NCBI GenBank assembly: GCA_003566455.1
Contig: PXDF01000093.1
Span: 1 to 37,663, forward strand
DNA: 37,663 nucleotides
Reading direction: 5' to 3'
From: Desulfonatronovibrio sp.
GTDB lineage: Bacteria > Desulfobacterota > Desulfovibrionia > Desulfovibrionales > Desulfonatronovibrionaceae
This document shows, in pieces, positions 31,934 to 37,663 of the stretch. Positions within the stretch are counted from its first letter, which is position 1; every line of letters begins with the position of its first letter. The notes beneath the pieces are model-generated. The model ran no database searches. It was not told the origin of the DNA and saw only the letters and a program-made list of their open reading frames with translations. Made by a program: the position numbers and the translations under genes.

Positions 31934-32365
31934 ATGCAAGCAGCACGTGAACAATTCTTTAATTATCTAGCCAAAAAAAAGTTAAAGTTTACTACACAGC
32001 GGGCTCTGATTTTTGATGTTTTCTGGCAGGTTGAGGAACACATCTCCCCGGAAGAACTTTACGGTCTGGTCAAAAAAAAGGACCCTTCCATAGGCCAGGC
32101 CACTGTATACCGCACTCTTAAGCTTCTTTCAGATTCCAAGATAGCCAGAGAAGTGGACTTTGGTGATGGTGTGACCAGATATGAGCCTTATTTCGGACAA
32201 AGCCACCATGACCATCTTATCTGCAAAGAATGCGGCAAAAGCGTTGAAGTCGTGGATGAAAGGATTGAAAAACTGCAGGAAAAACTGGCCGCGAAGCATG
32301 GTTTTATTCTGAGCGGACACAGCATGTACCTTTATGGCCACTGCAAGGAATGCTCAAAAAAATAA
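31934..32365 (+). CDS. fur: Fur-family metal-dependent repressor
   Basis: A 143-residue regulator with an N-terminal winged helix (KFTTQRALIFDVFWQ, SIGQATVYRTLKLLSDS), the metal site HHDHLICKECG and a second C-terminal CxxC (GHCKECSKK) that would hold structural zinc. With Fe(II) bound such proteins repress iron-uptake genes. Fur is favoured over PerR or Zur because the next 5 kb carries feoAB and several Fur-box-like palindromes. This is inference from context; the sequence alone does not fully separate the subfamilies. Confidence 0.88.
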   Translation: MQAAREQFFNYLAKKKLKFTTQRALIFDVFWQVEEHISPEELYGLVKKKDPSIGQATVYRTLKLLSDSKIAREVDFGDGVTRYEPYFGQSHHDHLICKECGKSVEVVDERIEKLQEKLAAKHGFILSGHSMYLYGHCKECSKK

Positions 32366-32485: not shown

Positions 32486-33037
32486 ATGAGCTGGATCCCT
32501 TCCGCTGTAGCTGTCTGGGAAAAAATCAGCAGTTCTTCAAAGATCCTGACCTGGCTATACTCAAGGCCATATCGTGGGGTGCTTGAAAATGAGATCACTC
32601 TGGCAGGTCTTCACAAAAATGATATAATTTTAAATATCGGTTGCGGAGCCGTGCCTTTCACTGCGCTTTATCTGGCCACCCTGGTCGGAGCCAAAGTCTA
32701 TGCCGTGGATATTGATCCCATGGCCGTCAGGCTGGCCGGGAAATGCGTTGAAAAAGCAGGCTTGTCCCACAGAATAAAAGTGATCGAGAAAGACGGTGCG
32801 AAAACTTTTGATTTTCCCTTTACAGCTTCTGTCATCGCTCTGCAGGCAGCCCCAAAAAGATTGATTCTGGACGCGGTAAAAAAAGCAGCCCTGCCCGGTG
32901 CAAGGTTTATTTTCAGGCTGCCCAGTTCTCCATACAAGGATCATTACGAAAGCCTGTCCACTGACCTGCCGCCAAGAGCCATATCCCCTCAGCCCATGCG
33001 GACCTTTGATCGCTCTGTGCTTTATGTGAACGCGTAA
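32486..33037 (+). CDS. Short nicotianamine-synthase-like methyltransferase-fold protein
   Basis: A 183-residue protein with a Rossmann-like SAM-binding core: ILNIGCGAVPFTALYLA (residues ~48-64), then VYAVDIDPMAVRLAGKCV, and a distal strand-helix block GARFIFRLPSSPYKDHYE. The pattern GCGxxPxTALxLA plus xDID and a late RxP/S-Y segment resembles nicotianamine synthase (plants have VGSGPLPLTSIVLA) more than ordinary methyltransferases, but the N-terminal helical domain of NAS is missing. It may transfer an aminocarboxypropyl group from SAM, or be a plain methyltransferase; this is pattern recognition, not proof. It has AGAGG before the ATG and a Fur-box-like site in its promoter. Confidence 0.65.
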   Translation: MSWIPSAVAVWEKISSSSKILTWLYSRPYRGVLENEITLAGLHKNDIILNIGCGAVPFTALYLATLVGAKVYAVDIDPMAVRLAGKCVEKAGLSHRIKVIEKDGAKTFDFPFTASVIALQAAPKRLILDAVKKAALPGARFIFRLPSSPYKDHYESLSTDLPPRAISPQPMRTFDRSVLYVNA

Positions 33038-33058
33038 TAAGCTTTTTTGTTCAAGATT

Positions 33059-34081
33059 ATGAAAAAAATAATTCAAATAGTTCTGAGCATTGGAGTCCTG
33101 GCCGCGCTGATCATACTTTTCAATCCTGAGGAAATTACCATACTCCTTGCCGGAATCACACCCCAGTCTCTCATGATTCTGTTTTCCCTTCAGCTGCTCA
33201 CTCTGATGGCCGGGGCCTGGATATGGTATTACCTTCTCAGCCGTCAAAGCAAAATATCCTTTACCTGGGTCTTCATCATCAATCAGGCGGCTGGACTGGT
33301 GGAAAGCCTGACTCCTTCGGTAAAATTCGGTGGCGAAGCGGCCAAGATCTATCTTTTCAGAAAAATTTCAGATCAGACTTACCAAGGCCTGACCGGGACG
33401 CTCATGGTCCACAAATTTGTGACCATGTTTCCCTTTACACTGCTTTGCCTGCTGATTTTTTTCCCTTCTTTGTACTATTTTGATCTCCCTGTCTTTTCTG
33501 TTGCGGTTCTGATCATGGTTCTGGCCATGTGTTTTGTTCTTGGCTGGCTCTGCTATGGAAAATCCGGAAAAGACCCGCTTCCTGGAAAGCCCGGCAACAC
33601 TGGAAATAACAGACCGAAATCCCTGAAAAATATCTTCACATCCAGACAGTGGATTTTGAAAACAGTCAGTTTTCTGAACCAGGCAAGAAACTCTGCTTCA
33701 GGTCTGCTGACCTTTGGAGAAACCAGGAATATTCTTCTTGTTTCATTTGCAATCTGGGTCCTTTATCCCATCAAGGTTTTTCTGGTCTGCATTTTTCTGG
33801 GCATTGAAGTCAGCCCGGTCATCATCGGGCTGGCCACACTTTTTGCCTATATGGTCAGCATGGTTCCACTTCTGCCCGGTGGACTTGGAACCTACGAAGG
33901 AAGTATGGCCATGTTTTTTACCCTTGGCGGACTCAGTCCGGCTGAAGGTCTGGCCATATCCCTGGTTTCCAGGCTGACCACATTCTGGTTCCCTCTGGCC
34001 CTGTCCGCCCTGGCCTGCGCTGCCCTGTGCTGGAAAGACAATCTGATCAAAGACAGGGAGCAGGCACGGCAGGCTGCTTGA
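33059..34081 (+). CDS. Flippase-like membrane protein (UPF0104 / LPG-synthase membrane domain)
   Basis: A 340-residue integral membrane protein with about eight helices. Conserved family features are INQAAGLVESLTPSVKFGGE near residue 85, YLFRKI, and the late block MVPLLPGGLGTYEGSMAMFF followed by RLTTFWFPL. The family is the membrane part of lysylphosphatidylglycerol synthases and related YbhN/AglD proteins. I use the ATG at 33059; a TTG at 33047 is possible. It follows the first NAS-like gene by about 20 bases, so the two are probably one operon; an export role for that gene's product is speculation. Confidence 0.82.
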   Translation: MKKIIQIVLSIGVLAALIILFNPEEITILLAGITPQSLMILFSLQLLTLMAGAWIWYYLLSRQSKISFTWVFIINQAAGLVESLTPSVKFGGEAAKIYLFRKISDQTYQGLTGTLMVHKFVTMFPFTLLCLLIFFPSLYYFDLPVFSVAVLIMVLAMCFVLGWLCYGKSGKDPLPGKPGNTGNNRPKSLKNIFTSRQWILKTVSFLNQARNSASGLLTFGETRNILLVSFAIWVLYPIKVFLVCIFLGIEVSPVIIGLATLFAYMVSMVPLLPGGLGTYEGSMAMFFTLGGLSPAEGLAISLVSRLTTFWFPLALSALACAALCWKDNLIKDREQARQAA

Positions 34082-34734: not shown

Positions 34735-34749
34735 TGAAATTCATTTTCA
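34735..34749. promoter_or_regulatory. Second Fur-box-like site before the 68-residue secreted protein
   Basis: TGAAATT-C-ATTTTCA is a 7-1-7 inverted repeat with one mismatch, matching 12 of 15 consensus positions. It is placed downstream of the likely promoter and 55 bases before the start codon. Confidence 0.5.
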
Positions 34750-34803: not shown

Positions 34804-35010
34804 ATGAAGAAGCAGTATTTTTCAGCGACTGTGTTGTCTATGGCTCTGTTCATGCTGATTTCGGCCAAAGCCTTTGCACACTGCGTCCGGGCCAAGCTCC
34901 ATCCCCTGGGAATGAGCCTCTCCCCTTCAACAACAAATATACGCGGGGTCAAATTCAGGTTGTCATTATCAGTTCACAAAAGATTAAATGTTTCTTCAGT
35001 AACCTTATGA
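34804..35010 (+). CDS. Small exported protein coupled to the second NAS-like gene
   Basis: A 68-residue protein with a convincing signal peptide (MKKQYFSATVLSMALFML, cleavage after AKAFA) and a short mature part of about 43 residues that starts HCVRAKLHPLG and has no recognised fold. AAGGAGG stands 7 bases before the ATG. Its TGA overlaps the ATG of the next gene (ATGA). The reading frame of that next gene is open all the way back through this region, so a frameshift after HPLG would join the signal peptide to a different tail (NEPLPFNNKYTRGQ). It may be a genuine small secreted protein or the start of a decayed larger one. Confidence 0.6.
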   Translation: MKKQYFSATVLSMALFMLISAKAFAHCVRAKLHPLGMSLSPSTTNIRGVKFRLSLSVHKRLNVSSVTL

Positions 35011-35630
35011 AAATATTTCAGCAAGCCAGGACTTCAAGCTGTTCCCCATCGAACAAATTTTCTTTGCCGGTTGACCGCTCATTATTAAAGTCGGTTATAC
35101 TTCTGGAGAATCTTGGAGTGTCTATGCCCAGGCTGGGCAGAGCTTATTCAAGGCTGTTCTACGAGAACATGCTGGAAAAAGAATTCGGCCTGTCCGGCAT
35201 AGCTCCCGGAATGAAGGTCAAGCACGTGGGATGCGGCCCTTTTCCAATGACCGCCATGTTTCTGGCCCGAAAAGGAATCAGAGTGACTGCCGTGGATTTG
35301 GACCATGGCATCCTTGGCCGGGCTCAAAAAGTCATCAACAATAACGGCCTGCAAAACAGAATCAGGCTGCTTGAGTCCTGCGGCACTCAACTGGACTATT
35401 CCGGGTACAGCGCTATCTGGCTGTCACTTCATGTCAGCCCGATGAACAAGATCGTTCAACGCGCCCTGAAATTCATGGATCAAGACGCGAGAATAATTTT
35501 CCGGGCACCACGGGGTAAACTTTCCATGTTCTATAGGGAGTTAAACCCGGAAAATTTGTCCGGAAAAACTACGTGGATGCAGATTCGCCAGCCTTTTGGG
35601 AAAAAAAGTATTATGTTGAAAAAAGCTTGA
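35007..35630 (+). CDS. Second nicotianamine-synthase-like methyltransferase-fold protein
   Basis: A 207-residue protein related to the one at 32486. Motif I is VKHVGCGPFPMTAMFLA (residues ~71-87), followed by VTAVDLDHGILGRAQ and a distal DARIIFRAPRGKLSMFYRE. The order GCGPFPMTA, then acidic loop, then a C-terminal strand with R-A-x-R and Phe/Tyr closely parallels plant nicotianamine synthase (GSGPLPLT ... MLRSAHALRAFLYP). Both paralogs also share Y-S-R and an L-E-x-E block just before motif I. It starts on the stop of the signal-peptide gene (ATGA) and is followed by Fur-box-like sites and feoAB. Enzyme activity is unproven. Confidence 0.65.
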   Translation: MKIFQQARTSSCSPSNKFSLPVDRSLLKSVILLENLGVSMPRLGRAYSRLFYENMLEKEFGLSGIAPGMKVKHVGCGPFPMTAMFLARKGIRVTAVDLDHGILGRAQKVINNNGLQNRIRLLESCGTQLDYSGYSAIWLSLHVSPMNKIVQRALKFMDQDARIIFRAPRGKLSMFYRELNPENLSGKTTWMQIRQPFGKKSIMLKKA

Positions 35631-35782: not shown

Positions 35783-36094
35783 ATGTTTAGACAATGGTTT
35801 GGACGAGGCGGGCCTTGTAATAACTGCCAAAAACCTCAGTCATCTTTAAATCAGGACAGGACCCTTGATTGTCTGCAACTCAATGAAACAGGAGAAATTG
35901 AAGCTGTTCCAGCTGAGGTCCTGCTGGAAGCCCTTGGATTCAGACCTGGCAAAAGAGTATGCTTGAGATGCCGGACACGTTTCGGAGGTCCGGTCATAGC
36001 CGAAATTGAAGGCCGGCATACAGCTTTGGGAAGAGACCTGGCCCGGAGAATCCGAATCAGGAAGAACTGCTGCCCATGTCCGGAAAATGAATAA
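35783..36094 (+). CDS. feoA: FeoA-domain protein with extra Cys clusters
   Basis: A 103-residue cytoplasmic protein. Residues ~30-93 form the SH3-like FeoA domain (ALGFRPGKRVCLRCRTRFGG, IEGRHTALGRDLARRIRIR), which assists FeoB in Fe(II) uptake. Typical FeoA is about 75-85 residues; this one has an N-terminal extension with C12-N-N-C15 and a C-terminal C96-C97-P-C99, which could bind iron, zinc or an Fe-S cluster. AGGAG lies 8 bases before the ATG. Its 3' end overlaps feoB by 8 bases. Two Fur-box-like sites stand upstream. Confidence 0.88.
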   Translation: MFRQWFGRGGPCNNCQKPQSSLNQDRTLDCLQLNETGEIEAVPAEVLLEALGFRPGKRVCLRCRTRFGGPVIAEIEGRHTALGRDLARRIRIRKNCCPCPENE

Positions 36095-37663
36095 GGACCA
36101 TATACTGCTCATGGGCCCGCCCAATGTGGGCAAGAGCGTTATTTTCAACCATCTCACCGGACTCAATGTCAGCTGTGCCAACTATGCCGGAACAACAGTT
36201 GAATTTGTTGCCGGGAAGACAAAAATTGGCAAAAATATTGTACTCCTGGTTGATGTTCCAGGTACCTACACCTTAAGCGCCACAAACCAGGCCGAGCAGG
36301 TCGCGGTCGACATGCTCAGGGGCAAACACAAACCAGGCTCCAGGGCTACCTGTCCTCATTGCCGTGACGATACCCCCGTCTGCGCTGATGAACTCTCCTC
36401 TCAACCTGCTGGCGTTATCTGCGTTGTTGACGCCAACAACCTTGAAAGCAGCCTTTATCTGCTCCTTCAGGTTCTGGAATTCAAACTGCCTACTGTAGTG
36501 GCCCTGAACAGGGTAGACCTGGCCAGGGAGAAAAATCTGGAAATCAACCTGGAAAAATTATCAGCAGAGCTGAGCGTGCCCGTGGTGCCCATGGTGGCCA
36601 TTGAAAAGAAAGGGTTTCCTGAGCTGGAAAAGGCACTGGATAATATCATCAGAGACCCTTTGAGGCCCGCGTTTTCATGGGACTCCGGCCAGGATGACCT
36701 TTGGAAGGTCGCAGAAGAAATAACCGGAAGGGTCTCTGTTTCCGGAAACGGCCATCCCCATTCTCATTCCAGGCGAAGGCTATGGGGCGAAAAGCTTATC
36801 CATCCATGGCCAGGGCTTCCCCTGGCCTTTCTTATTTTGCTGGTTTCCTTTGCCCTCATCGTGGGCATTGGTATGCAGATCAGGCAGCTTATTCTATTAC
36901 CCCTGTTCAGGGGCATGATTATTCCCCAGATTGTTAACCTGGTTGAAGCACTTGTATCTCCGGGCATGATCAGAAATATCATGGTCGGGGAGTATGGATT
37001 CCTGGTCAAGGGAATCGAATGGCCATTCACCCTTGTCATGCCTTATGTATTGTCATTTTATGGTGTTATGGCCGTCCTTGAAGACAGCGGATACCTGCCG
37101 CGCCTGGGAGTTCTTCTGGACGGCCTGCTGAACAGGATCGGCCTGCAGGGCTCAAGCATTATTCCGCTGCTGCTGGGATACGGATGCGGTATACCGGGCA
37201 TTCTGGCCACAAGGGCCTTGTCTACCGGCAAAGAGAGGCTCATGATCGCCACCATGATCTGTATGGCCATCCCCTGCATCTCACAGACCGGGGCCTTTAT
37301 CGCCATGCTTTCTGAACGTTCTGTAACCGTGGTGGCGGCGGTCTTTTCTGTTTCCTTCATTGCTCTTATTCTGGCCGGACTGATCATGGACAGGGTCATG
37401 CGCGGTCCAAGGCCTCTGACCATAATGGAGATACCCGAGCTTTTGCCGCCAAGAGCTGATGTTCTAACCAAAAAAATCTGGGTCCGTCTCAAACGATACG
37501 TTACTGATGGAGCTCTGCCTATGGTAATCGCCGTGGGAATAGCCTCTGTCCTTTACGAAACCGGAATCATGGCAGCTGCAGGCAGGTTTTTAAGTCCATT
37601 GGTGGTTCACTGGCTTCGCCTGCCTGAAGAAGCATCCATTCCCCTTGTCCTGGGAATCATGCG
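36087..37663 (+). CDS. feoB: Ferrous iron transporter FeoB, divergent type, cut by the window end
   Basis: The frame stays open to the last base, giving at least 525 residues; the 3' end is missing. The N-terminal GTPase has G1 GPPNVGKS, G3 DVPGTY and G4 NRVD (residue 141). Between G3 and G4 there is an extra segment with C89-P-H-C92 and C99, absent from standard FeoB. The membrane part has a Gate-like block GYGCGIPGILATRALSTGK and AIPCISQTGAF, related to but different from the usual GCNVPA and SARLP motifs, so this is a divergent FeoB. Transport of Fe(II) into the cytoplasm is inferred from family and from coupling to feoA. Confidence 0.9.
   Translation, partial: MNKDHILLMGPPNVGKSVIFNHLTGLNVSCANYAGTTVEFVAGKTKIGKNIVLLVDVPGTYTLSATNQAEQVAVDMLRGKHKPGSRATCPHCRDDTPVCADELSSQPAGVICVVDANNLESSLYLLLQVLEFKLPTVVALNRVDLAREKNLEINLEKLSAELSVPVVPMVAIEKKGFPELEKALDNIIRDPLRPAFSWDSGQDDLWKVAEEITGRVSVSGNGHPHSHSRRRLWGEKLIHPWPGLPLAFLILLVSFALIVGIGMQIRQLILLPLFRGMIIPQIVNLVEALVSPGMIRNIMVGEYGFLVKGIEWPFTLVMPYVLSFYGVMAVLEDSGYLPRLGVLLDGLLNRIGLQGSSIIPLLLGYGCGIPGILATRALSTGKERLMIATMICMAIPCISQTGAFIAMLSERSVTVVAAVFSVSFIALILAGLIMDRVMRGPRPLTIMEIPELLPPRADVLTKKIWVRLKRYVTDGALPMVIAVGIASVLYETGIMAAAGRFLSPLVVHWLRLPEEASIPLVLGIM

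Follow-up and report, generated by a model that had tools for sequence, protein, structure and literature searches.

A gene set joining a GDI-less FeoB to nicotianamine-synthase-like enzymes in bacteria and archaea, mostly of soda lakes

FeoB and nicotianamine-synthase (NAS)-like enzymes together make up a new gene set that is common to bacteria and archaea and comes mostly from soda lakes. It is seen here in a window of 37,663 nucleotides from Desulfonatronovibrio sp. (contig PXDF01000093.1, the whole stretch analysed), where the genes lie on the forward strand in the order Fur, NAS1, a flippase-like PF03706 protein, NAS2, FeoA and FeoB. How anaerobes acquire iron at pH 9–11 in the presence of sulfide is poorly understood, and Feo is thought to carry free Fe(II). 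We read the module as a whole, with a probability of roughly 0.55, as coupling an NAS-made Fe(II) ligand to a GDI-less FeoAB for iron uptake at high pH. If this is true, a five-gene set with a Feo–NAS fusion, moved between soda-lake bacteria and archaea, would be a new kind of metal uptake in which Feo gains a dedicated ligand, with specific predictions that enzymology, metabolomics and lipidomics could address. We found no description of the NAS–FeoB pairing in the open-access literature, which does not exclude publication elsewhere.

The association was established in a scan of 85,000 genomes that gave 165 relatives, of which 80 were kept. The FeoB subfamily was surveyed in 66 loci, and 56 of its FeoBs entered the loop count given below. 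At least one NAS gene adjoins FeoB in 61 of the 66 subfamily loci and both NAS1 and NAS2 are present in 39, while FeoA (65/66) and a PF03706 gene (40/66) also lie beside FeoB. Among 16 control FeoB loci, including the nearest outgroups, standard FeoB and two paralogs, NAS is nearby in none. NAS2 and FeoA form a single chain in 32 loci, and in two of these, Alkalispirochaeta and another spirochaete, the chain runs PF03706–NAS2–FeoA. Five subfamily loci (L060, L078, L081, L112 and L113) lack NAS, one of them (L081) being cut by a contig end. That contig, which bears the label Loktanella, nearly duplicates a soda-lake Halanaerobiaceae contig (L080) and is probably misbinned. In Desulfonatronospira, NAS1 lies outside the operon; the four most complete genomes that have the operon still encode it, and two fragmentary genomes showed no copy. 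Anaerobic-digester Bacillota (L106–L117) show the order FeoA–FeoB–NAS2–PF03706 and have no NAS1. In seven of nine loci of this branch a CDP-alcohol phosphatidyltransferase, closest to phosphatidyl- and archaetidylserine synthases, is found near the flippase gene, after PF03706. A DtxR-like regulator reads nearby in one digester locus (L115), and a YibE/F-family membrane protein occurs near the module in only seven loci (L056:8613-9734 and six others). In a sample of 395 genomes of the phylum, any NAS2-like gene is found in just five, the window's genome and four others in which the matches are weak. Weak NAS-like genes of about 270–325 aa (family f54 of the phylum: L181, L182, L183, L184, L186 and L187), with tandem pairs in two genomes (G129 and G417), are possibly another metallophore system that lacks this type of FeoB.

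Subfamily members are found in Desulfobacterota, Bacillota, Spirochaetota, Bipolaricaulota and Thermoplasmatota, in Methanocrinis natronophilus and in one haloarchaeon, many of the loci being metagenome bins. The module has spread horizontally between bacteria and archaea: in a quick tree of the subfamily FeoBs, with SH-aLRT support only, the archaeal proteins nest inside the bacterial ones, Methanocrinis with Clostridia and Thermoplasmatota among Halanaerobiales. A mobile element was considered as the route and dropped, a plasmid search having yielded one weak methyltransferase match only. Soda-lake sample codes or alkaliphile names, which we take to denote such habitats, are, as a raw share, attached to nearly all members; the digester Bacillota branch is the exception and is not obviously alkaliphilic.

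Both NAS proteins resemble nicotianamine and staphylopine synthases, and their predicted activity as aminobutyrate transferases follows from that homology. NAS2 (35007–35630, + strand, 207 aa, invariant E34, Y52 and E59) matches the Pfam NAS family PF03059 with 33.4 bits (E 4e-8), above the cut-off of 27.1, whereas the CntL-like NAS1 (32486–33037, + strand, 183 aa, invariant E12, Y29 and E36) scores 23.7 bits, below it, and as a single sequence is ambiguous in Pfam, generic methyltransferase families appearing at similar E-values. In profile searches against the PDB, both proteins match MtNAS and CntL far better than any other methyltransferase. NAS2 finds MtNAS (3o31) at 2.9e-24 and CntL at 1.5e-16, with other methyltransferases at 5e-8, and NAS1 finds CntL at 4.5e-17 and MtNAS at 1.4e-15, with the next other methyltransferases at 3e-7. 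In a Foldseek search with an AlphaFold model of NAS2, the one of the pair that was modelled, MtNAS structures rank first. The invariant Y52 of NAS2 aligns in the profile with the catalytic tyrosine, presumably Y107 in MtNAS and Y106 in AtNAS1 (the chain or native numbering of the former and the sequence position of the latter are partly our assumption). The invariant Y29 of NAS1 is equated with it through the same seven-residue spacing to an invariant glutamate. Y106 of AtNAS1 is essential (PMC10248798). The counterpart of the catalytic glutamate (MtNAS E81, AtNAS1 E77) is an uncertain match, as NAS2 E34 and NAS1 E12 lie N-terminal of the tyrosine yet about 8 residues nearer to it than the glutamate of MtNAS. 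The N-terminal domain of both proteins is shorter than in MtNAS.

The first gene of the locus encodes a Fur-family regulator (31934–32365, + strand, PF01475 E 3e-35), which also precedes the module in relatives from the same family. A motif scan placed a candidate Fur box, TGAAATTCATTTTCA, at 34735–34749 (+ strand), with a 13/14 match to TGAAAATnATTTTCA; none of 500 shuffled versions of the region reached its score, a result uncorrected for the roughly 19 regions and two motifs tried. Fur boxes at all promoters were considered and rejected, this being the single strong site and the remaining ones weak. The flippase-like membrane protein (33047–34081, + strand; PF03706 E 6e-36, TIGR00374 E 4e-31) is kin to the MprF flippase and HpnL. 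It is followed, between 34082 and 35010, by about 0.7 kb that holds no clear gene and then by a secreted-looking 68-aa ORF (34804–35010, + strand) with a signal-peptide-like start, which lies between the Fur box and NAS2 and has no family match. This ORF has AHC after its signal-like start and is perhaps a gene remnant, its sequence being reminiscent of how a DUF4198 protein (L045:4344-5072) begins. In one genome (G001) the DNA downstream of FeoB (L039:8169-12518) carries UPF0182, DUF1007 and a NicO nickel-transport-like gene. An opine dehydrogenase or racemase partner was sought among the recurrent neighbors within 6 kb and dropped when none was there; within the same distance of the subfamily loci, neither an opine dehydrogenase, a His racemase, an ABC importer nor a TonB receptor is conserved.

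FeoB starts at 36087 (+ strand) and its frame is still open at the contig end, 37663, leaving 525 of about 600 residues; since full-length orthologs have 598–601 residues, some 75 are missing. Domain hits and the subfamily tree assign it to the NAS-linked, GDI-less subfamily, and from its family membership it is predicted to carry Fe(II). It matches FeoB_N (E 2.5e-44), two Gate stretches and, weakly, FeoB_C, with no match to FeoB_Cyto in Pfam. The alignment shows the GTPase motifs G1 (GxxNVGKS), G3 (DxPG, here DVPG) and G4 (NxxD, here NRVD). Its TIGR00437 equivalog score is 277.9 bits against a cut-off of 315.65, the window copy being truncated at the contig end. The helical GDI domain (PF17910) is absent from the window FeoB and from L057, L058, L065, L106 and L164, that is, from every subfamily member scanned; it is found in the standard-type FeoB that the same genome encodes on another contig (C102). 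The sequence-only reading had called the membrane motifs GYGCGIPGI and AIPCISQTGAF divergent. They do differ from standard FeoB, but in the forms GYGC(A/G)IP and PC(I/V)(S/A)QTGA they run through the whole subfamily, and the pore cysteines C367 and C397, together with that of the C-terminal FYVPC, are conserved in the rows that reach those positions. C429 and C675 of PaFeoB are pore cysteines (PMC4847171) whose equivalents are kept. The N-to-A/G change in GxGCNxP was tried as a marker of NAS linkage; it separates the clade from the outgroups, yet is not diagnostic because the genome's own standard FeoB has Ala too.

Between G3 and G4, the window FeoB carries a Cys/His-rich loop (residues ~80–106, 36324–36404, + strand), with C89 at 36351–36353, C92 at 36360–36362 and C99 at 36381–36383 (+ strand). 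The sequence-only reading had placed these cysteines (CPHC, then C) exactly; the insertion makes the G3–G4 stretch 25 residues longer than in the genome's own standard FeoB. The cysteines are not the property of a single strain, all three being kept in nine orthologs from the same genus and its sister genus Desulfonatronospira, both in the window's family. Cys and His make up 13.7% of the loops at this site and 1.9% of whole proteins, about a sevenfold difference, and the cluster is therefore not due to chance. A loop of 24–36 residues is present in 16 of the 56 subfamily FeoBs, all but one of them Cys-bearing and usually with an H–C pair (GHCS, SHCS, SHCR). The remaining 40, among them every archaeal and Halanaerobiales member, lack it and keep the same operon, and the trait needs two changes on a tree built without the loop columns. 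Stand-alone FeoB paralogs in two genomes (G001, L044; G002, L045) retain the loop length and have lost C89; the second of these (L045:5463-7307, contig C122) is split over three overlapping frames, through either gene decay or faulty assembly. In an AlphaFold model of an ortholog (L057, pLDDT 83), the loop follows the switch II helix and precedes the next strand, and residues 83–93 have pLDDT under 50 and are disordered. We conclude that the loop is a dispensable, disordered, lineage-specific decoration that probably binds metal, a redox role also being possible.

FeoA (35783–36094, + strand, 103 aa, PF04023 E 5e-12) lies directly upstream of FeoB. It too had been credited with added cysteine clusters, and in part this holds: C30, C59, C62 and one C-terminal cysteine are common to the orthologs in the alignment, while the N-terminal CxxC and the CCxC of the window protein are not conserved. 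The cysteine content of FeoA does not go with the FeoB loop: at least three cysteines are present in 10 of 14 FeoAs with the loop and in 28 of 39 without it. A phylogenetic pair test had just one or two independent pairs and hence no power, and cysteine coupling between FeoB and FeoA was dropped as a candidate.

On the reading that we favor, the Fur-linked locus would be an iron-acquisition module in which FeoA and a GDI-less FeoB are tied to two minimal NAS-type enzymes and a PF03706 protein. NAS1 and NAS2 would move 2-aminobutyrate from SAM onto an acceptor, giving an Fe(II) ligand of nicotianamine type, either small or linked to a lipid, that the PF03706 protein may carry across the membrane. 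This ligand would keep Fe(II) available in the high-pH, sulfide-rich brine of soda lakes, and FeoAB would import the iron so supplied, with FeoA, in many lineages fused to NAS2, keeping the synthase next to the transporter. The Cys/His loop of the G domain would then be an optional metal-binding addition found in some lineages. In a lipid-anchored variant, which we judge unlikely as a specific proposal, NAS would add 2-aminobutyrate to an aminophospholipid (e.g., phosphatidylserine), the flippase would expose the headgroup and FeoB would receive Fe(II), so that the outward nicotianamine-like headgroup could catch the ion with no loss by diffusion. This variant stays on the table because PF03706 proteins are lipid-flippase kin, because a phosphatidyltransferase lies near the flippase gene in the digester branch, and because PF03706 is fused to NAS2–FeoA in two lineages.

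Several other explanations bear on the same observations. Nicotianamine, the metal carrier of plants, acts as an acceptor inside their cells, and the NAS product might likewise stay intracellular: NAS2, held through FeoA at the cytoplasmic mouth of FeoB, would make an acceptor to which Fe(II) binds on entry, and this capture would pull uptake and prevent toxicity or precipitation, the flippase-like protein acting at another step. The NAS2–FeoA fusions, which put the synthase on the cytoplasmic face, speak for such an arrangement, as do the lack of a nearby metallophore importer (within 6 kb) and the contact that FeoA makes, in one fused FeoAB protein (PMC8980893), with the G domain of FeoB. 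It leaves unexplained, however, why a flippase-like protein belongs to the operon and is fused to NAS2–FeoA in two lineages, and we regard it as unlikely. It is distinctly unlikely, in our view, that NAS1 and NAS2 are ordinary SAM methyltransferases, or modifiers of FeoA, FeoB or lipids, that share only a Rossmann fold with NAS and sit in a Feo operon that has no metallophore. The ambiguous Pfam result for NAS1 and the shortened N-terminal domain would fit this, but the profile matches to MtNAS and CntL surpass those to other methyltransferases by 8 to 16 orders of magnitude, the catalytic Tyr is retained at its distance of seven residues from a Glu, and MtNAS is the top fold match of NAS2.

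The proposal made from the window's sequence, that the FeoB loop and the FeoA cysteines form an iron- or redox-sensing contact gating GTP hydrolysis, now appears very improbable. The invariance of C89, C92 and C99 in nine orthologs, whose genomes also retain four cysteines in FeoA, agrees with it; the lack of the loop in most relatives with the same operon, the absence of any association with FeoA cysteines, the loss of C89 in the stand-alone paralogs and the disorder in the model all argue the other way. Because AlphaFold leaves it disordered, the insertion is more plausibly a loose loop that binds metal than a redox contact between FeoA and FeoB. The accompanying view of FeoA and FeoB as an unusual unit was right, the distinguishing partners being the two NAS-like enzymes and the flippase-like protein. 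The sequence-only reading had overlooked the lack of the GDI domain, the genome's second, standard FeoB and the NAS-like character of the upstream genes.

Compared with known Feo systems (PF02421, PF07670, PF04023), the window type is alike in G1–G4, the gates, the pore cysteines and the upstream FeoA. It differs in having no GDI domain (PF17910), in its own membrane motifs and in its linkage or fusion to NAS-like enzymes and a flippase-like protein; the 25-residue Cys loop is a feature of the window's family. MtNAS, the thermonicotianamine synthase of Methanothermobacter, is the closest structure to NAS2 by profile and fold and shares the tyrosine, whereas NAS2 has 20% identity to it, a shorter N-terminal domain, a second copy in each system and a position next to, or fused to, FeoA. 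Membership of the flippase-like protein in PF03706/TIGR00374 (MprF flippase domain, HpnL) is well above the cut-off, and to our knowledge such proteins have not been reported with NAS or Feo. The opine metallophore systems (staphylopine, pseudopaline) likewise have a CntL-like enzyme beside metal-transport genes. In the loci described here, by contrast, no CntM, His racemase or ABC/TonB importer is conserved nearby and the transporter is FeoB; CntM is reported from four bacterial phyla only (PMC7438024), whereas the NAS–FeoB module also occurs in Archaea and Spirochaetota. The Bacteroides FeoAB fusions, finally, also join FeoA covalently to a Feo partner, which there is FeoB and here is the NAS-like enzyme.
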